Positions 4,182 to 15,667 of a stretch of 15,727 bases of DNA are shown in pieces; position 1 is the stretch's first letter; every line of letters starts with the position of its first letter. A program made the position numbers and the translations under genes. Origin of the DNA: Candidatus Eiseniibacteriota bacterium (GTDB lineage: Bacteria > Arandabacterota > Arandabacteria > JAGLYR01); the NCBI GenBank assembly GCA_023132135.1, contig JAGLYR010000091.1, positions 1-15,727 of the forward strand, written 5' to 3'. The notes below the pieces were generated by a model that was given only the letters and a program-made list of their open reading frames with translations, had not been told where the DNA came from and ran no database searches.

Positions 4182-4223
4182 ATGCATGAACCCCGGCGTG
4201 GGGTTCATGCATGATCCAGGCTA
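4182..4223. repeat. Partial copy of palindromic intergenic repeat (copy C)
   Basis: A perfect 13-base stem (4182-4194 against 4200-4212) with loop GGCGT, followed by GATCCAGGCTA. The stretch 4200-4223 matches the right arm of copy B at 21 of 24 positions; the left outer arm is missing. It fills most of the 60-base gap between fliD and flgM, and its minus-strand TAG is the stop codon of fliD. It could also act as an mRNA hairpin, but no T-run follows it. Confidence 0.8.
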
Positions 4224-5657
4224 GTAGCTTCCCTGTATCCACGAGTTCATGCTGCTGATCATGGAGAGCATGACCTGCTGCATGTACATCGCCTGCTGGG
4301 AGGCGCCGTACTGCTTGATGAGTTCCTCTTGCTTCAGGTCCTGAAGCTGCTCCAGCCGGTCGATCTGGTCGTCGAGCCGGTCGATGTTGCTGCTCACGGC
4401 ATCCTTGCTGGTCCAGACAATCCCGGCGGCCGAACTGTAGTCGTCCACGAGATCTTCGAGCGCCGTCGCAATTCCGCCGGCGGAGTTGAAGAGGTCTTCG
4501 ACATCATCCAGGTGTTCGGTCAGCGCAGCTACGAAATCGTCCGCATCGGAAATGGAGAAACTCCCGGTAGAGGTCGAAGAAATCCCGATCTGCGAGAGAC
4601 CTGAATAGTTGCCTCCCGCAACGGTCGAGACTATCCCAGCCATGAGCGATCTCATGTTCTGCCAGAGATTCACATACGAATAGTCGCCGGCGAGAGCTCC
4701 CCGCGTGTAGGTTGTGGTGTCCACCGAGATCTTGGAGCTCAGGTACTCGTACGCGTCGTTGTAGACCTCAAAGAACTCCTCGACCTTGGACTTGATCGTG
4801 TCCGTATCAATCGAGACCGTCATCGTGATGTCCGCATCCGCTGCCTCCTGTTCATTCAGGAGAGTCAGCGTGACGCCGGTCAGAACATCGCTGACCGAGT
4901 TCGAGGACCTGATGATACTGACACCATCCACCGTCAGTTTGGCGTCCAGCTCGTTGCCGCCAAGATCAGCGTATATGTACCCGCCCACCGTATCCGTCGA
5001 TGCGCTCGCGTTGGTCACCCCGAGCGCAGCCAGCAGGCCGTCGGTGTCCGTGAAGGTCATCTTGTTCTCGGTGCCCGTCTCGTTGCCGGCAATGTAGAGC
5101 TTCGAGGTCGAGTCCGTGTCGTCAATCCTGGACGCCCGAACGGGGATGTCGGCCACGTCGTTGATGGCCTGTGCGATTGCGGCCAGAACATCCTCGTTTG
5201 TGTCGCCCGAATTGATCGTGAGGCTGACGTCGTAGTCGGTCCCATCCACCGTGATTGTGAAGCTCTTGGTTCCGGCATGAGCGGCACTGAGGTCTGTCGC
5301 TGCCGAGGTGTACCTGCCGGAGAGAACCGAGTGCGCCCGGGCCAGCTGCTCGATGTGAATCGTGTGGGCCATTGCGACGGCCCCGGCCCCGGCCGTGGCG
5401 GTGAGCACGTCGGCATCGCTCGAGGTTGTGCTCTTTGCCCCGAAAGCCGACAGCGTCCCCCCTGCCGCCATGTCCTCAGCCAGATCCCTCAGCGTCGAGA
5501 GCTTGGACTTGAGGTCCGTGTAGATAGCCGTTTTCATGTCCAGAGCATCGCGCTGGCTTTCCAGACCGCTGATCCGCGCGCGCGAGGACGCCAGGTAAAT
5601 ATCAAGAAACTGGCCGAGACCCGCTGTATACACCATCCCGACACTGCTCATGCTCAT
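4221..5657 (-). CDS. fliD: Flagellar filament cap protein FliD (hook-associated protein 2)
   Basis: A 478-residue exported protein, within the usual FliD range. It forms the oligomeric cap that folds incoming flagellin at the filament tip. The N-terminal helical segment (about 9-65, including LDIYLASSRARISGLESQRDAL) and the C-terminal coiled region (about 425-470, NIDRLDDQIDRLEQLQDLKQEELIKQYGA) give the expected D0/D1 architecture, with a Ser/Thr/Asp-rich middle. The end QVMLSMISSMNSWIQGSY is typical of the family. ATG at 5655-5657 overlaps the fliS TGA as ATGA; a second ATG two codons later is also possible. The stop TAG coincides with the outer end of repeat copy C. The middle part diverges, as in most FliD proteins. 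Confidence 0.95.
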   Translation of the reverse strand: MSMSSVGMVYTAGLGQFLDIYLASSRARISGLESQRDALDMKTAIYTDLKSKLSTLRDLAEDMAAGGTLSAFGAKSTTSSDADVLTATAGAGAVAMAHTIHIEQLARAHSVLSGRYTSAATDLSAAHAGTKSFTITVDGTDYDVSLTINSGDTNEDVLAAIAQAINDVADIPVRASRIDDTDSTSKLYIAGNETGTENKMTFTDTDGLLAALGVTNASASTDTVGGYIYADLGGNELDAKLTVDGVSIIRSSNSVSDVLTGVTLTLLNEQEAADADITMTVSIDTDTIKSKVEEFFEVYNDAYEYLSSKISVDTTTYTRGALAGDYSYVNLWQNMRSLMAGIVSTVAGGNYSGLSQIGISSTSTGSFSISDADDFVAALTEHLDDVEDLFNSAGGIATALEDLVDDYSSAAGIVWTSKDAVSSNIDRLDDQIDRLEQLQDLKQEELIKQYGASQQAMYMQQVMLSMISSMNSWIQGSY

Positions 5658-6037
5658 GGCTTCGTGGTCTCCGGCGCCTGAACCCCGGCGCCCCCGGCCG
5701 CGGCTCCCGATTCAACCTGGTCTATGACTCCCCGCCATGCCTCACGCAGCTCCGAGAGGGGCCCGATGGCCTCTTCGAATCTCCCTTCCCGGATGGCGTC
5801 GAGGCAGTACTCGTACATCCGGAACAGCGGGCCGGCGATTTCCTCGTGGTCCAGGTTGAGGGCGCCCATGAGCTCGACCAATCCCTTCTTCGCCTGTGCG
5901 GTCTCTCCCCTGTGGCAGCAGGAGATCACATAGTCGTAGGTCTGGAGCACCAGTTGCCCGGGTGTCGCGCTTTCGAGTTTGCTGGCGCTGTAGGCCTCTA
6001 CCGCGTCACGAGTCGCTGTAGGACATCGAGTCGGCAT
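5654..6037 (-). CDS. fliS: Flagellin export chaperone FliS
   Basis: A 127-residue cytoplasmic four-helix chaperone that binds the C-terminus of flagellin before export. The conserved opening AYSASKLESATPGQLVLQTYDYVI (from residue 15) matches the family pattern (AY....VETASPxxLLxxLYD), followed by NLDHEEIAGPLFRMYEYCLDAI. The C-terminal tail is Ala/Gly-rich. ATG at 6035-6037, preceded by GAGG at five bases. It lies 92 bases after flagellin, the gap holding a strong hairpin, and overlaps fliD by four bases. In the Bacillus scheme FliS also affects the free flagellin pool that FliW senses. Confidence 0.94.
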   Translation of the reverse strand: MPTRCPTATRDAVEAYSASKLESATPGQLVLQTYDYVISCCHRGETAQAKKGLVELMGALNLDHEEIAGPLFRMYEYCLDAIREGRFEEAIGPLSELREAWRGVIDQVESGAAAGGAGVQAPETTKP

Positions 6038-6129: not shown

Positions 6130-6975
6130 CTACCTGCCCATAATCAGCTGGAGTACCGACTGCGGCTGCACGTTCGCCTGCGAAAGCATCGCATTCGCCG
6201 ATTGCTGCAACAGTGTGTACTTCATCATCTCCACCGACTCCTGCGCCATGTCTGCGTTCATGATTCGGCTGTGGGCGGCGAGCTGGTTGTTGATGGTCAC
6301 CGAGATGTTGGCTTCCTTGATCCCGACTCTCAGCTGCGTGGAACCAATGGTCTGGAGACTCGTGTTGACGGTGGTGATCGCCGTGTTGACGCCGGACAAG
6401 GCGCTAGACGCATTAGCGGCGGTATCCACGGCGAGGTCAGCGTCCGCCACGCTGAGGCCGGAAGCCCCGTGGTTCTGGGTAATGCCGAAACTCAGCGTGT
6501 CCGTGGCCCCCTCGCCAACCTGGAAGATCTTGCCTGTGAATGTTCCGTCCAGGAGAGTATTGCCACCCCACGTCGTCGTAGACACGATGTTGTCGATCTC
6601 CGAGGCGAGGTCGTCCAGCTGGCTCTCGACCGCAGTACGCTCGGTTGTTCCCAGCGTGTCGTTGGCGGCCTGCAGGATTTTCTCCTTCATGACCAGGAGA
6701 ATCTCGCTGATGTTCTGCATGCCGCCCTCGGCGGTGGCCATCAGGTTCTGGGCATCGCCGATGTTATCACGAGCGACGCTCAGACCCCTGGATCTCGACT
6801 CGAGCCGCTTGGCAAACACCATACCGGCCGGGTCGTCGCCCGCGGAGTTGATCCGTTTGCCGGTCGCCAGCCTCAGCTGGTGGATGGACAGTTTTGAGTT
6901 GATGTCTCGCAGGGCCTTGAGCGCATTCAGCGCGGCGACGTTGGTATTGATACGAGACAGGTCAGCGCCCGCCAT
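6130..6975 (-). CDS. fliC: Flagellin (short, core-domain type)
   Basis: A 281-residue flagellin, the filament subunit. The N-terminal D0/D1 is clear: LSRINTNVAALNALKAL, then LATGKRINSAGDDPAGM (36-52) and GLSVARDNIGDAQNLMATAEG (64-84). The C-terminal D1/D0 is also clear: IKEANISVTINNQLAAHSRIMNADMAQE (219-246) and LLQQSANAMLSQANVQPQSVLQLI (255-278). Only about 80 residues (140-218) separate the two halves, so D2/D3 domains are absent. That middle part is rich in Ser/Thr/Ala and could carry O-glycans. There is no cysteine. ATG at 6973-6975 with AGGAG seven bases upstream. It is preceded by a sigma-28 promoter and a long GGA-rich leader, which predicts sigma-28/FlgM control of transcription and CsrA/FliW control of translation. 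fliC or hag are equivalent symbols. Confidence 0.97.
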   Translation of the reverse strand: MAGADLSRINTNVAALNALKALRDINSKLSIHQLRLATGKRINSAGDDPAGMVFAKRLESRSRGLSVARDNIGDAQNLMATAEGGMQNISEILLVMKEKILQAANDTLGTTERTAVESQLDDLASEIDNIVSTTTWGGNTLLDGTFTGKIFQVGEGATDTLSFGITQNHGASGLSVADADLAVDTAANASSALSGVNTAITTVNTSLQTIGSTQLRVGIKEANISVTINNQLAAHSRIMNADMAQESVEMMKYTLLQQSANAMLSQANVQPQSVLQLIMGR

Positions 6976-6982
6976 ACTTTAG

Positions 6983-6993
6983 CTCCTTTCCTT
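6983..6993 (-). promoter_or_regulatory. Flagellin ribosome binding site with overlapping CsrA-type motifs
   Basis: The minus strand reads AAGGAAAGGAG here, seven bases before the ATG. It contains two overlapping-spaced AAGGA motifs, the second being the Shine-Dalgarno sequence itself. A CsrA dimer bound to an upstream hairpin and to this site would block ribosomes, as for site BS2 of Bacillus subtilis hag. Confidence 0.65.
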
Positions 6994-7009
6994 CACTTGC
7001 AACGAAGAC

Positions 7010-7025
7010 GCGGCATCCTTGCCGC
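7010..7025 (-). promoter_or_regulatory. CsrA-binding hairpin 1 in flagellin leader (predicted)
   Basis: The minus strand reads GCGGCAAGGATGCCGC: a perfect six-base stem GCGGCA/TGCCGC with tetraloop AGGA. The core CAAGGATG matches the known CsrA SELEX core CARGGAUG exactly, with the GGA exposed in the loop as the consensus requires. It lies 35-50 bases upstream of the flagellin ATG; its GGA is 32 bases from the GGA of the ribosome site, within reach of one CsrA dimer. Confidence 0.75.
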
Positions 7026-7034
7026 TTACCCGGA

Positions 7035-7052
7035 TTGACCTTCCCTGGTCAA
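7035..7052 (-). promoter_or_regulatory. CsrA-binding hairpin 2 in flagellin leader (predicted)
   Basis: The minus strand reads TTGACCAGGGAAGGTCAA: a perfect six-base stem with hexaloop AGGGAA. The loop contains ANGGA (AGGGA). It lies nine bases upstream of hairpin 1, with 26 bases between the two GGA triplets. On its own this could be a protein operator, but the tandem arrangement of two hairpins with GGA loops favours CsrA. Confidence 0.6.
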
Positions 7053-7163
7053 CCAATTCCCGAAGATTTGCGAGGGTTCGGACCTACCCGCTTGCCCGGC
7101 ACTCCTTGCCTCAGCTCTCCTCCTTTCCTGGGTACGCTCCAGGGCAGAGGTCCGGTTGGTGAA

Positions 7164-7196
7164 CTCCCCATGTGAATGGGACCTTTGTCTGGGGAG
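7164..7196 (-). other. Inverted repeats at the 5' end of the flagellin leader
   Basis: CTCCCCA (7164-7170) pairs with TGGGGAG (7190-7196), and inside it CCCAT (7167-7171) pairs with ATGGG (7176-7180). The two hairpins exclude each other. Depending on where transcription starts, the outer one may be cut short. It could protect the 5' end or be chance; no function is claimed. Confidence 0.35.
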
Positions 7197-7197
7197 C

Positions 7198-7224
7198 TGA
7201 TCGCAAGTCCCGGCCGGAACTTTA
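7198..7224 (-). promoter_or_regulatory. Sigma-28 (FliA/SigD) promoter of flagellin
   Basis: The minus strand reads TAAAGTTC (7217-7224), eleven bases, then TGCGATCA (7198-7205). Compared with the consensus TAAAGTTT-N11-GCCGATAA, the -35 element matches 7 of 8, the -10 keeps the CGAT core (5 of 8), and the spacing is exact. The TAAA overlaps the TAA stop codon of the upstream glycosyltransferase gene. Transcription should start near 7191, giving a leader of about 215 bases. Confidence 0.78.
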
Positions 7225-8709
7225 GTCCGCGTTGCCCGCGTGCCTGCCTTTCTTCGGGTCGGGAGGAAAAGGAGCCGCGGCCACAGCGCCGGGGCCCTGA
7301 TACATCGACCTAAACTCCGCCAAATGTTCCCTTGCCTGACTAACATCCCCCATTTTGTGGTAGAGTCCCGCAAGCCGCCTGTGCGCTTCGTGCGAGCCGG
7401 GATCCAACTCCAGCAGGTGCCTGTAGCTCTGCGCAGCGGCTGCGAAATCCCCCACCTTGATTCGCAGCAAACCCTGGCATCCGTAGAGCCCCGCTTGCGG
7501 GTTCTTGCCGATAGCTGCGTCAACAGCCGCCAGAGCCCTGGCGGGAGAATCGCCCGCGCCGGCAACCCTCGCCAACAGCCGGTAGCCCTCCGGCCACTCC
7601 GGATTGTGTGTGATGACGCGCTCGGCGTCTGCCTGGGCTTCATGCAGTTCGCCCAGCTGCAGGTACGACTCGCCCCGGATCAGGAAGGCCCTGGCCGGAT
7701 CCGGTTCGAAGGTCATGAGCACGGGCGTCTGTCCAGAAGCCTGCCCGGAAACCTGCCTGGAAACGTGCCTGCATTTCTTGAGATACCTGTCCGCTGTCCG
7801 GATCGCCGACCGGTGCTCCCCGCGCTGGCAGAGAGCGGAAGCAAGGATCAGGAGTGGAGTGGGAATGACGGGGTTCAACTTGAGTGCTTCTTCTGCTTCT
7901 TCGACGGCCGGATCCAGTTCCCGGAGTCTCAACAGAATGCTCGCCAGATTCTGGTGGGTCGAAGCAGTGTGTCCGGGGGGAAGGTTCCCGAGCCGGAGCG
8001 CCAGATCGTAGCACCTCCGCGCCTTCTCCGCTTCCCCCAGGAGCGCGTAGGTTTCGCCCAGGTGGTAGCAGACAAACCCGTCATCCGGGCGGTCCTGGAA
8101 ATCGAGATGGAGAAGCTCAAGGTTGCGCCGGAGCTTGGACTCCTGGAAATGCGGGGCCAGAGCATAGCCCGAGTGATCAATCTCCAGGTCCGAGAATACA
8201 AGCCGGGCTCCTGCGGCGCTGAGAGCAGGGTAGATCTGTTCGTGCACCCGGCCCTGGTAGCGATACTGCGGCCGGTTGCGGAACAACCTCTGGAAGGCGT
8301 GCACAAAGGTCTGCCCACGCCGATGGCCCGCCATAGGGCTCCGGATCATGACGTAGCAGGCATCGGCCCGGCCCGAGAGCAACCGCCGGAGTTTGCCCTG
8401 TTGCCCCGGCGCCAGTTTCTCGTCGGCATCCAGGCAGAGAATCCAATCGCCGGTGGCGGCTTCCAGGCTCGCATTCCTGGCGTGAGAGAAGTCGTCCTGC
8501 CACTGGATTTCGAGGACTCGAGCGCCCAGGCTCCTCGCAACCGGGACAGTGTCGTCCCCGGAGCCGGTATCGACCACGACAACTTCGGTCGCCACACCCT
8601 TGACACTCTCCACAGCCGAGGGCAGGCGCTCCGCTTCGTTCTTCACGATCAGGCAGACCGAGAGAGTTGGAGAGGACGCGGGCTTCTCGCGAGCATGCTC
8701 AGTGGACAC
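7222..8709 (-). CDS. GT2 glycosyltransferase with C-terminal TPR repeats
   Basis: A 495-residue protein. Residues 15-190 are a GT-A fold family 2 domain: LSVCLIVKNEAERL, EVVVVDTGSGDDTV, the metal-binding DxD in CLDADEKL (92-99), and RVHEQI (154-159), typical of the SunS/WaaE-like branch. Residues about 210-470 are TPR helices (YHLGETYALLGEAEKARRCY, then several 34-residue-like units). The start is GTG at 8707-8709 with GGGAGG upstream; no in-frame ATG precedes the catalytic domain. It overlaps the preceding glycosyltransferase gene by 11 bases. It lies directly before the flagellin promoter, so flagellin or another filament protein is a plausible acceptor, with TPRs recognising the protein (inference). 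Residues 314-329 are a four-residue tandem repeat. Confidence 0.9.
   Translation of the reverse strand: MSTEHAREKPASSPTLSVCLIVKNEAERLPSAVESVKGVATEVVVVDTGSGDDTVPVARSLGARVLEIQWQDDFSHARNASLEAATGDWILCLDADEKLAPGQQGKLRRLLSGRADACYVMIRSPMAGHRRGQTFVHAFQRLFRNRPQYRYQGRVHEQIYPALSAAGARLVFSDLEIDHSGYALAPHFQESKLRRNLELLHLDFQDRPDDGFVCYHLGETYALLGEAEKARRCYDLALRLGNLPPGHTASTHQNLASILLRLRELDPAVEEAEEALKLNPVIPTPLLILASALCQRGEHRSAIRTADRYLKKCRHVSRQVSGQASGQTPVLMTFEPDPARAFLIRGESYLQLGELHEAQADAERVITHNPEWPEGYRLLARVAGAGDSPARALAAVDAAIGKNPQAGLYGCQGLLRIKVGDFAAAAQSYRHLLELDPGSHEAHRRLAGLYHKMGDVSQAREHLAEFRSMYQGPGAVAAAPFPPDPKKGRHAGNAD
7723..7770 (-). repeat. 12-base tandem repeat inside GT2-TPR gene
   Basis: Four imperfect 12-base units encode RHVS, RQVS, GQAS and GQTP in a row (residues 314-329), between TPR units. 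The frame is kept. It looks like a slippage-derived linker. Confidence 0.6.
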
Positions 8710-11700
8710 TGGAACCTCCCGTCGAATCGACCGGCAGCGCCGCCCCGAGACCCGCAAGACGTTCCTCGGCTTCCCTTTGGCCTGGGGCCACGGCGAGGGC
8801 CTGCCTGTACCAGTCCTCGGCCCCCGCCCGATCCCCAAAGCGGACGAACCAGTCTCCCAGATCCAGGTAGGTTGCAGGATCGGTCGGATTGCGCTGGACC
8901 ATTTCCAAGTACAGGGCCATCGCCTTGTCGAAGTCCCTGGTGCTAAGGTAGAGATCGCCCAGGTTCCGGAGAATCTCCCGGTTTCCGGGTTCCAGTTCCA
9001 GGGCTTCCCTGAAATATCTCTCCGCGTCCTGGTCTTGCCCCTGTTCAAACGCCAGACACCCCAGGCTGTTCTTGGCCTGGGTAAGTCCGGGGTTCACGGT
9101 CTCGATGGTCTTGAGGTCATTTTCCGCCTCGTCCGTGCGTCCCTCGTTCATCAGAATCAGCGCCCGGCAATGGAGCGCCCGCGTGTAGTCCGGCTTGTGA
9201 GCCAGCGATTCTTCGATGCACCGGACCGCGGCGCCCAGGTCTCCCCCGGCAACGTAGCCATCTACGTCCGCGAGCGAGCGGACGGCCTGCAACTCCACGG
9301 GATCCGTTTCCGAACCGCCCCCCTCTTCCGGAGTAAAATGTACGTAGCTTCCTGCAACACAACCCGCTGTCCAGCCCATGTCCGCCATCCGGCGGACAAG
9401 ATCCGGCCACCCGGCCGTGGACCGGAATTCCGGCAGCAGACCGCCCGAGCCGAGGTAGGGTTCCCTTTTCACCAGCAGGCACCACCCGGCCGGTTCCTGG
9501 ATGGTCTTCCAGATCCCGCGGTTTTTCTTCCGGTTCTTCTCCGTGTACTGTTCCAGCCCTTCCTCGGGCAACCGATATCCCGGACGAACCCGCTGAACCG
9601 CAGGACCGAGGTTGCAGCGCGGCACCAGGATGCCGGCCTCCTTCCTCCTCGTGGCGGCCTCAAACAGTTCTCCCAGTCCTCCCTTTTCGGCCATGACCCC
9701 TGAGGACAGAACCAGGACCCAAGGTGTTGAGGCGCGGCGGATTTCCCCGTCGATCTGCCTCATCAGCCGACCGTCCTCGAGGGCCTGGATTGTCACGCCT
9801 CCCTCCTCGAGGGAGCGGAACAACTCCGGACTCCGGCACAGGATACGGACACAGGCGCCCGCCGGGAGCTCCCCAAGCGTTTTCCTGACCTCCGCCGGAG
9901 AGACCTCATCCCCTTCCTGGTACAGCACCACGGTGAGAGCCGGACTTGCGGTTTCCCGAACCGCCGCCTGCGGCCCCATGACCGGCTTCCATTTCTGGAG
10001 AAAGATCTCCGAGTTCTTCTTCAGAAGCGCCTCGTAGTCGACGTTCATGCTGCGGAAGGTGGCTCCGCCCTCGTGGTGAATGAACACGTCCTGGGCGCAA
10101 ACCACCTTGTACCCAGCCAGCCGAAGCCTGAGACAGTAGTCATCGTCCTCGAAGTTCCCGATCCCGAACCGGGTGTCGAAAAGGCCCGTCTCCTCGATCA
10201 CTCTGCGCGGGATTGCCATGCACATTCCCACGACCTTCGGGAGCTCCCTGCGCCGGCCCCGCCAGGTGAGATACCGCTCCTCGCTGAAACTGTAGAGAGC
10301 CTCCTCATCCTTGTACCCGACCTGGATCATCTGCTCGTTGTTCGCGTAGTTGGTAAGGGGAGCGACAACACCGACGCGGGCATCGGCCTCAAAGTGATCC
10401 AGCAATCTCTCCAGCCAACCCGGAGTGACGATGCAATCGTTGTTGAGGAGGACAACGTAGTCCCCGTGCGTGTTCTGGATGCCCTGGTTGACCGCCGCGG
10501 CAAATCCCAGGTTCTTCTCGTTCCGGATGCAGCGATAGTTGTTCTGCCGCGCGGCGTAGCTGACCGGTTCCTCCGAACCGTTGTCGATCACGAGAATTTC
10601 ATAGGGAATGCGGGTGTTCTTCCGGATGCTGGCCCAGCAGCTCTCCGTGAGTGCGAGGTTGTTGCAGACGGGAATCACGATGCTGACAAGGGGTACGATT
10701 TCCGGGCGCTTCGGGAGCCGCCGGTAGCCGGTGCTCGCTTCATCGGATCTCGATTGTCCTTCTCCCTGGCCTCCGGCTCGCGATCCGGTCTCCTGTCCCA
10801 ACCTCGGTCCACGCTCGGCATCCGTTGCACGTCCCGCGTCAATGGCGTCGAATACGTCTTCCCAGTACTGCCTGGCGCTCTCATAACTGTATTTCCTAGC
10901 CACCAGATTCCGGGCGTTCTCCGCCAAGGTTCTCTGGAGCACTTCATCCCCGTACAGGCGGATGACTTGAGCGGCGAAACCTTCCGGTGTGTCTGCGATG
11001 AGGATGTCGCGCTCGTGGGAAAGCCCCATCCCCTCGGCGCCGATGGAGGTCGAGACCTGCGGGATGCCGGCGGCCATGGCCTGTCCAACCTTGCCCTTCA
11101 GGCCGGCGCCGTAGCGCAGTGGCACAACACAGACACTGGACTCCTGGAGATACGGAAGGATGTCGGGCACGAATCCGGTCACGATCACCCGTTCCCCGGC
11201 CAGCGCTTCCACCGCGGGAGTCGGTCCGTTTCCGACAATGTAGAACCTGACATCCGGCAGTTCCCTGTGTATGAGGGGCAGGATCTCCTCTGCGAAATAG
11301 ACGACGGCATCCTCGTTCGGCTGGTGCTTGAAGTTGCCGATGAAAACCAGATCCTTCCGCCCGGCCTTCCACTCGAAGGGGGGCACCGGATGGATATCCG
11401 TAGAGATACCCACCTGGAGAGACGAGTCTTCCCGGAGGAGAACCTCCCGGTCCTTCTCCGTGACCGTCAGCGCCATGTCCGCCTTCCGGTACCACCCAAG
11501 CTCGATTCGCTTGACTTCCTCGGCATGCCAGAAATCCTCGTCCTTTCCGGAGATCTCGGCCCTGCGCCTCTCTCTCAGGAACTCCACGTCGTATGAGTCG
11601 ATGATGAGAAGACTCCGGGGTGAGTAGGTGCGGACATCCCCGTAGTACTGAGACGCAACATGGTAGAAGCCGATGATCACGGCCTTGAAGTCGTTGGACT

Positions 11701-12760
11701 GGAGCAGCTGGGGGAAGTCTATCCAGAGGGGGCCGCTTGTTTCGCACCCCAGTTGCTTCATCCGCGCCTGGTCCGTATGGAAAACGGTGATTCTCTGTTC
11801 TTCCAGAGGATTGATGTACTTGATTCCGTCCTGACCGTTGCGCGCCAGGAACACGACCTGGTACCGCTCCCTGAGAATCTTCAGGGTGTGGAACCACCGC
11901 ATTTCTCCGGCGGCGCGATCGTAGAGGGGGAGAAAAGGCAGGATGACCAGGATCTTCTCCTTCCCCTCCTCCGGCGGAATCTCGAAGACGTTGGACCGCT
12001 GCCGGTCCAGTTCCTTCCGCCACTTCGCTATGAACTTCGGTTTGTTCCGTTGCTGCAGGTCTGCGGAACGGGAGCGCTGGTCCGGGACTCCGAAGCTCCC
12101 GCCCTCGTGATGGACGACAACCGCTCGCGGTTCGTAGACGACGCGGTAGCCCGCTTTGCGCGCCGAGAAACAGAGATCCGTGTCCTCCCAGTACGCCGGC
12201 GCGAACTGGGGATCGAAGGTCCCCGTCTTCTCAAGCGTCTCGCGCTTGACGTAGAGACATGCGCCCGAGACGTAGTCCACGTCCGTAGCCTGGTTGTAGA
12301 TGTAGCGGTCCGGATCGTCGTACTTGCCGATTTCCCGTCCCGAGGCATCGGAGAAAATCTCGCCCCCCGCCGTCTGGAGCCTTCCATCGGGAAAGACGAG
12401 TTTGGCGCCGACGATTCCGATCTGTGGATCCGAGTAGGCGCGCTCGACCAGAACCTCCAGCCAACCCTGGGAAACTTCCGTATCGTTGTTGAGTAGCAGT
12501 ATGTCCCGGTCCGCGTAGCGCTCCATCACCAGATTGTTTCCCAGAACGAATCCGAGGTTCTTTTCCGGCGCCAGGTGATCCACCCCGTCCCCGAGCTCCC
12601 TCAGGTAATTCTTCGTGCTGTCAGTGGAAGCCTGATCGACCACACAGATCCTGCAGGCTTGCTTCGTGTTCGCGAAGATGCTGTCGATGCAGCGGCGAAG
12701 GAGATCCACTTTGTTGTAGCTCAGAATCGCAATGATCGGCGGCTTCGGCGGTCGGCCCAT
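8699..12760 (-). CDS. Giant multi-domain glycosyltransferase (GT2-GT4-GT2-GT2-like-TPR)
   Basis: A 1353-residue cytoplasmic protein with at least four transferase-like domains. Residues 8-250: GT2, with IIAILSYNKVDLLRRCI, NNDTE (91-95) and WEDTDLCF (191-198). Residues 269-640: GT-B fold resembling GT4, with GNFKHQPNEDAV (475-486) and GAGLKGKVGQAMAAGIPQV (551-569). A low-complexity linker spans 645-685. Residues 690-927: second GT2, with SIVIPVCNN, LLNNDC (771-776) and FEDDDYCLR (870-878). Residues 940-1150: a decayed GT2-like segment where the acidic motif is replaced by VLVLSSG (1015-1021). Residues 1160-1345: about five TPR units. ATG at 12758-12760, with GAGGAG nine bases upstream. It lies in the block between csrA and flagellin, so glycan assembly for flagellin is likely but unproven; a surface polysaccharide is the alternative. 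It overlaps the next gene by 11 bases. Confidence 0.93.
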   Translation of the reverse strand: MGRPPKPPIIAILSYNKVDLLRRCIDSIFANTKQACRICVVDQASTDSTKNYLRELGDGVDHLAPEKNLGFVLGNNLVMERYADRDILLLNNDTEVSQGWLEVLVERAYSDPQIGIVGAKLVFPDGRLQTAGGEIFSDASGREIGKYDDPDRYIYNQATDVDYVSGACLYVKRETLEKTGTFDPQFAPAYWEDTDLCFSARKAGYRVVYEPRAVVVHHEGGSFGVPDQRSRSADLQQRNKPKFIAKWRKELDRQRSNVFEIPPEEGKEKILVILPFLPLYDRAAGEMRWFHTLKILRERYQVVFLARNGQDGIKYINPLEEQRITVFHTDQARMKQLGCETSGPLWIDFPQLLQSNDFKAVIIGFYHVASQYYGDVRTYSPRSLLIIDSYDVEFLRERRRAEISGKDEDFWHAEEVKRIELGWYRKADMALTVTEKDREVLLREDSSLQVGISTDIHPVPPFEWKAGRKDLVFIGNFKHQPNEDAVVYFAEEILPLIHRELPDVRFYIVGNGPTPAVEALAGERVIVTGFVPDILPYLQESSVCVVPLRYGAGLKGKVGQAMAAGIPQVSTSIGAEGMGLSHERDILIADTPEGFAAQVIRLYGDEVLQRTLAENARNLVARKYSYESARQYWEDVFDAIDAGRATDAERGPRLGQETGSRAGGQGEGQSRSDEASTGYRRLPKRPEIVPLVSIVIPVCNNLALTESCWASIRKNTRIPYEILVIDNGSEEPVSYAARQNNYRCIRNEKNLGFAAAVNQGIQNTHGDYVVLLNNDCIVTPGWLERLLDHFEADARVGVVAPLTNYANNEQMIQVGYKDEEALYSFSEERYLTWRGRRRELPKVVGMCMAIPRRVIEETGLFDTRFGIGNFEDDDYCLRLRLAGYKVVCAQDVFIHHEGGATFRSMNVDYEALLKKNSEIFLQKWKPVMGPQAAVRETASPALTVVLYQEGDEVSPAEVRKTLGELPAGACVRILCRSPELFRSLEEGGVTIQALEDGRLMRQIDGEIRRASTPWVLVLSSGVMAEKGGLGELFEAATRRKEAGILVPRCNLGPAVQRVRPGYRLPEEGLEQYTEKNRKKNRGIWKTIQEPAGWCLLVKREPYLGSGGLLPEFRSTAGWPDLVRRMADMGWTAGCVAGSYVHFTPEEGGGSETDPVELQAVRSLADVDGYVAGGDLGAAVRCIEESLAHKPDYTRALHCRALILMNEGRTDEAENDLKTIETVNPGLTQAKNSLGCLAFEQGQDQDAERYFREALELEPGNREILRNLGDLYLSTRDFDKAMALYLEMVQRNPTDPATYLDLGDWFVRFGDRAGAEDWYRQALAVAPGQREAEERLAGLGAALPVDSTGGSSVH

Positions 12761-12796
12761 GACGTTTCTCTCCTCTTCTTCTCCCGGAGATCCGGG

Positions 12797-13783
12797 TTAC
12801 CCTCTCCGGCTGCCACGGCCGGAGAGTGGACTCTGAAGGTTCGCTATCAGCCGGTCCCGCTGCCGGACCTGCTCGTCCAGCTCCAGCGCCCACCGGGTTC
12901 TGTCTTCGAACTCCACCTGGAGTCTCTCGATAGTCTGGTCCCTCAGTTCCAGTTCTTGCTGAAGGCTCTCGATCCACTGGGTCCGGCTGTCGAGATCGGA
13001 ATCGACCTCCTGCAAACCCAGGCTGTCTCCCATTGAGTACCACCGGGCGCCGGGCAAGGATGCAAGATCCCGCTCCTCCCTGTAGCAGACGGCAATGAGA
13101 TACCGGCACAGGTCCATCGCGACCGTCGTTGGAGCCGGCTCTCCCCACGTGGACTCCGACGGGGGCCGAACGAGGTGCGCGCAGGTCAGAAGCGTTGTCC
13201 CTGTTTGCCGGCTGTGAACCGGCAGGATGCTCAGGCCACCCGCGCGGTTCTGCGCGTAGGAGAAAACCTGCGGGAACCGATTCTTGAGAAGCCCCTCGAA
13301 TTCATCGGGAGTGTATTCGCGGTAGTGGAAAGGATTGTCCCCGTCCTTTCCCCCTGCTGCGTATGTGTTGGCATTCGGCGTCGACAGCACCAGGACCCCG
13401 TCAGGCCTTAGAAGCCGCCGCATCTCGTCAAGAAGAACCTCGGGTTCCGGGACGTGTTCGAAGACTTCGAAACACACAATCGCATCAAAGGAAGCCTCAT
13501 CGAGCCCGGTGTTGAGAACATCCCTCTGCTCGTAGGAAAGCCGTTCGCTCCGGTAGTGCTCCCGGCAGTAGGCCACGGCCTCTTCCGAGATGTCGATCCC
13601 GAGAACGGACTCCGCCCCGCCCCGAGCGAGATGGTAGCTGCCGTAGCCGCAGCCACAGCCGGCATCGAGCACGCGCTTGCCCTCAATAAGGCTCGAGGCA
13701 AACAGATATCGTGTCATATGCTCAAGGAACAGGTCGTCGAGTCCCCCAACGGTCGGAACCAATCTTTCGCCGGTGAATTCCAT
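12797..13783 (-). CDS. Class I SAM-dependent methyltransferase with coiled-coil tail
   Basis: A 328-residue protein starting MEFTGERLVP, a common start for methyltransferases in glycan clusters. The Rossmann motif I VLDAGCGCGYGSYHLA (38-53), acidic motif II LGIDIS (61-66), FDAIVCFEVFEHV (99-111) and LRPDGVLVLSTPN (125-137) are intact. Residues 265-318 form a charged heptad-like coiled coil (SLQQELELRDQTIERLQVEF and following), ending in an Arg/Gly tail. ATG at 13781-13783 with a near-ideal AGGAGG four bases upstream; an open frame extends further upstream but has no family homology in its translation. It starts 25 bases after the GT9 gene. Likely job: methylating a sugar in the glycan built by the neighbouring transferases (inference). 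The coiled coil may tether it to them. Confidence 0.9.
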   Translation of the reverse strand: MEFTGERLVPTVGGLDDLFLEHMTRYLFASSLIEGKRVLDAGCGCGYGSYHLARGGAESVLGIDISEEAVAYCREHYRSERLSYEQRDVLNTGLDEASFDAIVCFEVFEHVPEPEVLLDEMRRLLRPDGVLVLSTPNANTYAAGGKDGDNPFHYREYTPDEFEGLLKNRFPQVFSYAQNRAGGLSILPVHSRQTGTTLLTCAHLVRPPSESTWGEPAPTTVAMDLCRYLIAVCYREERDLASLPGARWYSMGDSLGLQEVDSDLDSRTQWIESLQQELELRDQTIERLQVEFEDRTRWALELDEQVRQRDRLIANLQSPLSGRGSRRG

Positions 13784-13808
13784 CACACCTCCTGATTTGC
13801 AGTTCCCG

Positions 13809-14960
13809 CTATGTCGTTGCGCACGCCGGCACCTCTTCGGTCTTCTCCCCGCGCGCGAGCAGGCCCTCCAGCGCTTCGTGAACCTCCACCGGTTCAATGA
13901 GATCCATGCAGCCGGGCGTTTTCCCGCAATCTCCCCGGTAGCAACACACGCAGTCCAGCTCCGGAACGATCGCCACCCCGCTGCCGTAGAGATCAATCTC
14001 CCAGGACGAGGTGGGACCGAAAAGAGCGACGACCTTCTTCCCCAGCCCCAGGGCCGCATGAAGACCCAGGGTGTCGCCCGTAACCACCACGTCGCACAGG
14101 TCGACCAGCGCGAAATACTCGCGCAGCGAATGGTCGCCGCCCGGGTCGACGGCCCACCCGTAACTCATGGCGTTCAGCCAATGGTTGGTCTCCCGCTCCG
14201 AAGCGCCGCCAAGAAGCAGAACCCTCCAGTCGGTCTCGCCCCGCAGTCGCAGGATGAGATCCCGGTAGCTTTCCTTCGGCCAGCGCTTCCGCGGCCAGCG
14301 GAGGCTCGCGCCTGTGTTGAGCCCGATGACCGTCTCGCCCTCAAGATGCCGGACACGAGCCAATTCCATTGCGAAGGACCTCTCCGAATCCGTGAGCCGG
14401 AGAATGATCTGCTGTCCATCGGGCTCCAGACCACAGATCCGGTGCAGGTGATCCTGGTAGGTCCGGCGGTTTGCCCGCTTGCGATCGTCACTGCCCCCCA
14501 TCTCCAGCCACTCTACGGACTCAGGATTCGCCGGACGAACCTGCCCCGTTTCGTCCAGTGTGTACCCCCGCTTGGTCCGGCCTTCCGCAAGAGTGGCCAA
14601 CGCTGCGCTCTTCTTCGACGCGTCGGGATTCAGAATGAGATCGAACCGTTCCACCTGCAGCCGCGCCAGGCCCTCCGCGTCGAGAAACAATGTCTCGTCA
14701 ATCAGAGAGTTGTTCTCCAGGACCGCCGCAGCCTCGCGGGCCGTGAACCAGGTAATGTGGCAGTCCGGGTACCGCCGCAGGAGAGAGGGGAGCAGGCAGG
14801 TTGTCCGGAGCACATCCCCAAGGGCATCCAGTTTGATGATCAGGACCCGGAATCCTGTCGGGGAAAAGTGCGGACATCCCCGGCACTGTATCCCCGACTG
14901 CTTGTGGAACCGGCACGGGCGATCCCCGGGAAAGTGCCGGCAATCAGGATTAACCCGCAT
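13809..14960 (-). CDS. Glycosyltransferase family 9 (heptosyltransferase-like)
   Basis: A 383-residue GT-B enzyme. Residues 37-53 (RVLIIKLDALGDVLRTT) are the GT9 N-terminal signature; TGASLRWPRKRWP (216-228) and TGDTLGLHAALGLGKKVVALFGPTS (294-318) form the nucleotide-sugar side. An N-terminal Cys/His cluster precedes the fold (Cys7, His9, Cys16, His19, Cys26, Cys29, His31), and a second Cys group lies near the C-terminus (Cys337, 339, 340, 345, 351); both could bind metal. I chose ATG 14958-14960, which overlaps csrA by 11 bases; an ATG at 15024-15026 would overlap csrA by 77 bases and adds only a basic tail. GT9 enzymes build LPS core, but position beside csrA and flagellin suggests flagellar glycan work here. 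Confidence 0.9.
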   Translation of the reverse strand: MRVNPDCRHFPGDRPCRFHKQSGIQCRGCPHFSPTGFRVLIIKLDALGDVLRTTCLLPSLLRRYPDCHITWFTAREAAAVLENNSLIDETLFLDAEGLARLQVERFDLILNPDASKKSAALATLAEGRTKRGYTLDETGQVRPANPESVEWLEMGGSDDRKRANRRTYQDHLHRICGLEPDGQQIILRLTDSERSFAMELARVRHLEGETVIGLNTGASLRWPRKRWPKESYRDLILRLRGETDWRVLLLGGASERETNHWLNAMSYGWAVDPGGDHSLREYFALVDLCDVVVTGDTLGLHAALGLGKKVVALFGPTSSWEIDLYGSGVAIVPELDCVCCYRGDCGKTPGCMDLIEPVEVHEALEGLLARGEKTEEVPACATT

Positions 14961-15198
14961 GTGAGTGCCCGCCCTCTCCTTGCCCCGCGTTTTCCCCGGA
15001 ATCCGGCGAGGCAGCACCAGAGGCATCTCCCGAGGCGTGCCTGCTGGAATCCGACCCGATTTCCGCTCGCAGGATAGTCATCTCGGCCGGCGCCGAGATG
15101 GTGAGCTTCACCTCCCTGCTCCGGATTTCCCGCACCTCGATCCTGATGTCGGGTCCGATCCGGAGGGCCTCTCCCTCCCTGCGGGTAATCACCAGCAT
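14950..15198 (-). CDS. csrA: Carbon storage regulator CsrA with extended tail
   Basis: An 82-residue RNA-binding translational regulator. Residues 1-47 (MLVITRREGEALRIG, then EVREIRSREVKLTISAPAEM and TILRAEI) cover all five strands of the CsrA fold, including the key Arg44 and the Arg6/Arg7 pair. The tail 48-82 is long, low-complexity and rich in Ser, Gly, Ala and Asp; typical CsrA proteins are 60-75 residues. The start is ATG 15196-15198: the open frame extends to 15321, but the extra residues run inside fliW and are not CsrA-like. GGAG overlapping the fliW stop provides ribosome binding; the gap is seven bases. The likely main target is the flagellin leader at 6976-7191. FliW, encoded just upstream, is the expected antagonist. 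Confidence 0.96.
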   Translation of the reverse strand: MLVITRREGEALRIGPDIRIEVREIRSREVKLTISAPAEMTILRAEIGSDSSRHASGDASGAASPDSGENAGQGEGGHSHAG

Positions 15199-15205
15199 TC
15201 TTATC

Positions 15206-15667
15206 TCACTCCGAAACGGCTGTCCTGTCCTTCGCCATCCGGATCCCGTCAACAATCCGGAACCGGGGCGAGTACTGATCTCCCGGGAGGACAATCTGGC
15301 GCCCAATCCGCCTGACGGCATTGATCAGAATCGGACCCTTGAGATTCGCCGTCATCTCCACCGGGTCGTCGGGGATTCCAACCACCACCAGAACCTGCAG
15401 ACCCTCCCCGTCGGAGGACTTGAGAACCAGCCCGTCCTCCTCCGGAATATCGAAGTCGTAGTGGGAACAGAACTCCCGGGGATCCATGACGACAAAAGCC
15501 AGATCGGGCCGGCCCACCGCCTGAAGCCACCTGAAGGGCGAGCCCGGCCGGTGATCGAGGAGAACATACCGGTCGATGTCTTCGAACCCGAACAGACCCC
15601 TGGAGAACTCGACAACCTCTTCCTCAGGTACTTCGAGGACTCCGAACCGTGTCGTGTCGATCTTCAT
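15206..15667 (-). CDS. fliW: Flagellar assembly factor FliW
   Basis: A 153-residue cytoplasmic protein that binds either CsrA or flagellin, releasing flagellin mRNA from repression when flagellin is exported. The family pattern is clear: IDTTRFGVLEV, FSRGLFGFEDIDRYVLLD (21-38), FRWLQAVGRPDLAFVVMDPREF, LVVVGIPDDPVEMTANLKGPILIN and RIGRQIVLPGDQYSPRF (residues about 121-137). Length is normal. ATG at 15665-15667 follows the flgL stop by 34 bases, the classic flgL-fliW-csrA order. Confidence 0.96.
   Translation of the reverse strand: MKIDTTRFGVLEVPEEEVVEFSRGLFGFEDIDRYVLLDHRPGSPFRWLQAVGRPDLAFVVMDPREFCSHYDFDIPEEDGLVLKSSDGEGLQVLVVVGIPDDPVEMTANLKGPILINAVRRIGRQIVLPGDQYSPRFRIVDGIRMAKDRTAVSE

Follow-up and report, generated by a model that had tools for sequence, protein, structure and literature searches.

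The 5' leader of a flagellin gene from an uncultured bacterial lineage contains two tandem hairpins of the CsrA-binding type. We propose, with a probability of about 0.62, that CsrA represses flagellin synthesis through these two hairpins and the ribosome site, and that repression is relieved by titration of CsrA or by a FliW contact so far undescribed. The flagellin mRNA leader, made from a sigma-28 promoter, would be a CsrA-binding regulatory leader. A CsrA dimer would grip hairpins 1 and 2, or link hairpin 1 with the GGA-rich ribosome site, and bound CsrA would block ribosome entry, so that flagellin translation is repressed. Relief would follow either when the abundant leader itself titrates CsrA, as a flagellin leader can do in C. 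jejuni (PMC4894983), or when FliW touches CsrA by that undescribed contact. We infer binding, repression and relief, and likewise which of the sites are bridged.

Two CsrA-type hairpins in the flagellin leader

The window (the whole 15,727-nt stretch of DNA analysed here) encodes on its minus strand a flagellin gene followed by fliS and fliD, and fliW and csrA are found about 8 kb upstream of the leader on the same strand, as a sequence-only reading had proposed (Table 1). An N12-spaced sigma-28-like promoter precedes the flagellin gene in the window and all related flagellin genes (6/6 leaders).

Table 1. Features of the flagellin locus in the window
Feature	Position	Strand	Description
Hairpin 1	7010-7025	minus	GCGGC-AAGGAT-GCCGC, CsrA-type hexaloop CANGGANG; the inner A-U can close, giving a 4-nt loop
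Hairpin 2	7033-7054	minus	GGTTGACC-AGGGAA-GGTCAATC, CsrA-type hexaloop CANGGANG; core 7035-7052
Ribosome site	6984-6993	minus	two AAGGA motifs (6984-6988, 6989-6993), AAGGAAAGGA; candidate third CsrA contact
Weak upstream hairpin	7098-7110	minus	GGCA-AGGAG-TGCC, 4 bp; doubtful CsrA site
Flagellin 5' leader	6976-7191	minus	transcription start predicted from the promoter, about 7190
Sigma-28-like promoter	7197-7224	minus	TAAAGTTC-N12-GCGATCAG; -35 overlaps the stop codon of the upstream gene
Flagellin gene	6130-6975	minus	281 aa; Pfam Flagellin_N and Flagellin_C
fliS	5654-6037	minus	3' of flagellin
fliD	4221-5657	minus	3' of fliS
csrA	14950-15198	minus	82 aa; R6 and R44 kept; C-terminal helix and N55 absent
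fliW	15206-15667	minus	153 aa; conserved positions intact

Both six-base stems of that reading, with their AGGA and AGGGAA loops, are present on the minus strand. Drawn in this way, hairpin 1 is GCGGCA-AGGA-TGCCGC and contains CAAGGATG, which is indeed an exact match to the CsrA SELEX core CARGGAUG. The core of hairpin 2 (TTGACC-AGGGAA-GGTCAA) grows to eight pairs, including a G-U, when the stem is extended to its full length. In three folding contexts the pairs of hairpins 1 and 2 have probabilities of 0.73-1.0, and the GGA of each loop is unpaired at a probability of at least 0.95. The ribosome site has no hairpin of its own. All four AAGGA motifs of the earlier reading exist, two at the ribosome site and two upstream (7103-7107 and 7121-7125, minus strand). 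The upstream pair did not hold up as further CsrA sites: the weak hairpin that carries the first motif has a probability of 0.6-0.7 in one folding context, drops to 0 in another and is lost once more of the surrounding sequence is included. The second motif is mostly paired. The stability of the whole leader is not unusual when compared with shuffled sequences (z is -0.79), and the signal therefore resides in the two hairpins rather than in global folding.

We also noted a Shine-Dalgarno-like AAAGGAGG about 150 nt 5' of the flagellin start (about 7119-7126, minus strand), which recurs in the related leaders L004 and L006 and differs by one base in L003 and L005. No obvious start codon lies at normal spacing from this site.

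The hairpins are not chance occurrences

We searched for the CsrA/RsmE consensus, an ANGGAN hexaloop closed by C-G (CANGGANG) on a stem of at least three pairs. Exactly two such hairpins occur on both strands of the 15.7-kb window, namely hairpins 1 and 2. When the leader was dinucleotide-shuffled 5000 times, two or more of these loops, again with at least three stem pairs, arose twice (0.0004), and two whose stems had at least five pairs never arose; permitting one 1x1 mismatch in the stems brought the figure to 0.0012. The leader holds 12 GGA triplets, compared with a shuffle mean of 6.9 (0.0056). Relaxing the loop to any closing pair returned ten further matches elsewhere in the window, all but one of them with only three pairs. 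The hairpins are thus real and not a product of chance.

Flagellin leaders of other phyla served as a positive control for the search. A CsrA-type hairpin is present in 14 of the 21, and several combine a hairpin between -30 and -80 with a second one at the ribosome site. Within 110 bases of the start these loci have 7.0 hairpins per kb, and in their remaining sequence 0.31 per kb, a difference of ∼23-fold. Our finding belongs to a widespread kind of control, here in an uncultured lineage. Rfam returned no relevant family at gathering or relaxed thresholds.

The loops share the C-ANGGAN-G arrangement closed by C-G with known RsmE/CsrA sites such as hcnA and the SELEX ligands. The window hairpins differ in their stems, which are longer than in most SELEX ligands, and in occurring as a tandem pair within a single flagellin leader. 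Stems with no more than four pairs were favoured in SELEX (PMC7652899), and the longer stems of hairpins 1 and 2 count against reading them as CsrA sites.

Hairpin 1 is conserved, hairpin 2 is shared with the nearest relative

The phylum is represented by only eight genomes in the collection, five of which, including that of the window, encode this flagellin. The flagellins of the other four are 71-72% identical to that of the window. A sixth flagellin (79% identical) comes from JALGYY010000035.1 (L032), whose source, the metagenome-assembled genome LQ108M_Bin_12, has been placed in the candidate phylum Orphanbacterota (PMC9727166), the nearest named relative of the window lineage.

The sequence-only reading had named covariation of both stems in relatives, with the loop GGA held constant, as a check. 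The GGA is constant in hairpin 1, which is kept in 6/6 leaders as GGC-A[AG]GGA[TAC]-GCC, between -41 and -50 relative to the start codon, but hairpin 2 has a counterpart only in L032, on another stem (CGGUUG-c-UC-ACGGAU-GA-a-UAACCG). The GGA spacing between hairpins 1 and 2 is nearly equal in the two (26 nt in the window and 27 nt in L032). As a GGA loop, hairpin 2 is absent from four more distant class members, which have a hairpin with covarying pairs and an AUGA or ACGA loop near the same place. The GGA at the ribosome site is not kept in L005 and L006.

In the consensus fold of the four distant class members, whose leaders are long and structured, an upstream CUUGCCUG is paired to the hairpin-1 element and GCCCC to the ribosome site. 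At equilibrium the GGA of hairpin 1 is hidden in these four and their ribosome site is paired. Since the GGA is hidden, the site may act differently there. In L003 and L004, hairpin 1 forms only if a short stretch is folded alone, and in L005 it does not form even then. The hairpin-1 sequence is kept in L005 though the long-range pairing is partly broken, an indication that selection acts on the sequence itself.

These folds bear on a different regulatory outcome, in which CsrA binding at hairpin 1 would disrupt a structure that hides the ribosome site and so activate translation. In its favour, the GGA element of the class relatives lies where two helices meet, and one of these helices joins GCCCC to a GGGGG ribosome site. 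However, the window and L032 are without this CCCC:GGGGG pairing, hairpin 1 of the window forms in all contexts, and the known flagellin targets are repressed (PMC4894983, PMC7652899). We regard activation as very unlikely.

Could the conserved block instead be a small open reading frame, the hairpin pattern being a by-product of coding? In L003 and L004 a frame of 49 codons runs through the block without a stop, and all four class relatives have a different frame that is uninterrupted there. Against this, no frame shows a consistent synonymous excess; the largest value, 0.38 compared with 0.24 expected, comes from the most divergent and least alignable pair. The six leaders share no common frame or start codon, and internal variation of the 12-base hairpin-1 element between lineages is confined to the two N positions in its loop. 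The substitution comparison gave no convincing sign of coding, and we find a coding origin hardly credible.

The L003-L006 leaders are themselves structured from about -150 to -1 (∼200 nt), with covarying stems and the ribosome site paired to GCCCC, and match no Rfam family.

CsrA keeps its RNA-contact residues and lacks the FliW dock

The csrA product scores 62.3 bits against PF02599 (cut-off 27) and retains the invariant RNA-contact residues Arg-6 and Arg-44. Its family match stops at residue 48 and is followed by a low-complexity tail (GSDSSRHASGDAS...), with serine at position 51 and alanine at position 55. The CsrA of L032 likewise has neither the C-terminal helix nor Asn-55. AlphaFold models built on a common sequence set give no helix for the window CsrA and a helix at residues 48-59 for that of a relative; with 8 sequences and a pTM of about 0.45, we count them as support only.

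FliW binding depends on CsrA Asn-55 and the C-terminal region in B. subtilis, C. jejuni, C. difficile and G. sulfurreducens (PMC7829508, PMC13407953). A complete alanine scan of C. jejuni CsrA found only Val-51 and Asn-55 to be needed, and Asn-55 is identical in all FliW-containing species examined (PMC7829508); in Geobacter binding is likewise Asn-55-dependent (PMC13407953). In our set, Asn-55 is kept in the FliW-linked CsrA proteins of four class members and in 22 of 24 from more distant genomes (for two of these the position was assigned by eye, offset by one or two residues). The remaining two (L061 and L070) form one family that has threonine at position 55 and keeps the helix region. A search of the window's genome at relaxed thresholds found no second CsrA or FliW, in an assembly that is 96% complete and from which a gene could be missed.

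The partner protein is well preserved. FliW matches the known FliW structures 5dmb and 2aj7 and keeps nearly all positions conserved in 31 other FliW proteins. Each of the phylum's five genomes with flagellin encodes both proteins, and fliW adjoins csrA in these five and in L032.

The sequence-only reading had envisaged a complete CsrA-FliW-flagellin loop. Its CsrA half stands: from the loop consensus, position, conservation and promoter, CsrA control of the leader appears highly likely. The FliW step fares less well. Because the window CsrA is without the helix and the Asn-55 that FliW needs, relief is likely not by canonical docking. Canonical FliW relief has probably been lost or rewired, and titration or the undescribed FliW contact is the more likely route. 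It may be argued, against a loss of FliW relief, that some working link remains since fliW still adjoins csrA.

An intact loop of the Bacillus type would have FliW bind CsrA by other contacts and free the flagellin mRNA, with FliW in turn bound by free flagellin. The gene adjacency in the five flagellin-bearing genomes and in L032, the synteny preserved in L032 and the near-complete set of conserved FliW positions all fit such a loop. The helix and Asn-55 are nevertheless gone from both the window and L032 proteins, and the only two residues needed in the C. jejuni scan, Val-51 and Asn-55, are replaced by Ser-51 and Ala-55 in the window. On balance, we consider an intact loop unlikely. A further version, in which CsrA uncoupled from FliW docking goes with the second hairpin and flagellin output is set by titration between leader and CsrA and not by FliW, seems to us quite unlikely. 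Our preferred reading remains that CsrA acts as a repressor at two hairpins and the ribosome site, and that titration or the undescribed FliW contact lifts this repression.

Second CsrA proteins occur elsewhere. Four class members (L043, L044, L045 and L046) have a second, more canonical CsrA outside the flagellin locus. In the genome of L032, a second FliW adjoins a divergent CsrA-like protein (L085, 1420-2171, minus strand), which keeps Ile-51 and Asn-55 and has glycine in place of Arg-44, the mirror image of the flagellin-locus CsrA with Arg-44 kept and Asn-55 absent. To judge from these residues, one of the two CsrA proteins in this genome may serve for RNA binding and the other for FliW binding, possibly within a mixed dimer.

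Relation to known flagellin leaders

The system is not categorically new. The B. subtilis hag leader likewise combines an upstream GGA hairpin with a GGA at the Shine-Dalgarno sequence, and csrA and fliW are present and adjacent. The window leader differs in its second upstream hairpin, which fits the earlier claim of at least one site more than in Bacillus, in its length of about 200 nt, and in a CsrA without the FliW-docking helix and Asn-55. The C. jejuni flaA leader (PMC4894983) also has two ANGGA hairpin sites, in a structure kept in relatives. It is 45 nt long and places its second hairpin at the ribosome site, whereas both window hairpins lie upstream of the ribosome site, and the window CsrA again differs by the absence of Asn-55.

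What is new is the second upstream hairpin, common only to the window and its nearest relative, and a CsrA without the FliW dock, two changes seen in one lineage that may be connected or independent. Our analysis adds an uncultured lineage to those with likely CsrA control of flagellin, and offers a natural test of the rule that CsrA Asn-55 is invariant wherever FliW regulates CsrA. If FliW still works in the window lineage, the docking rule is incomplete; if it does not, the lineage illustrates how a flagellin homeostasis loop can be rewired while its RNA half is kept.

Between csrA and flagellin, the window (7222-15026, minus strand) contains glycosyltransferase and methyltransferase genes, whose order matches that in L032 and which may serve to glycosylate flagellin.
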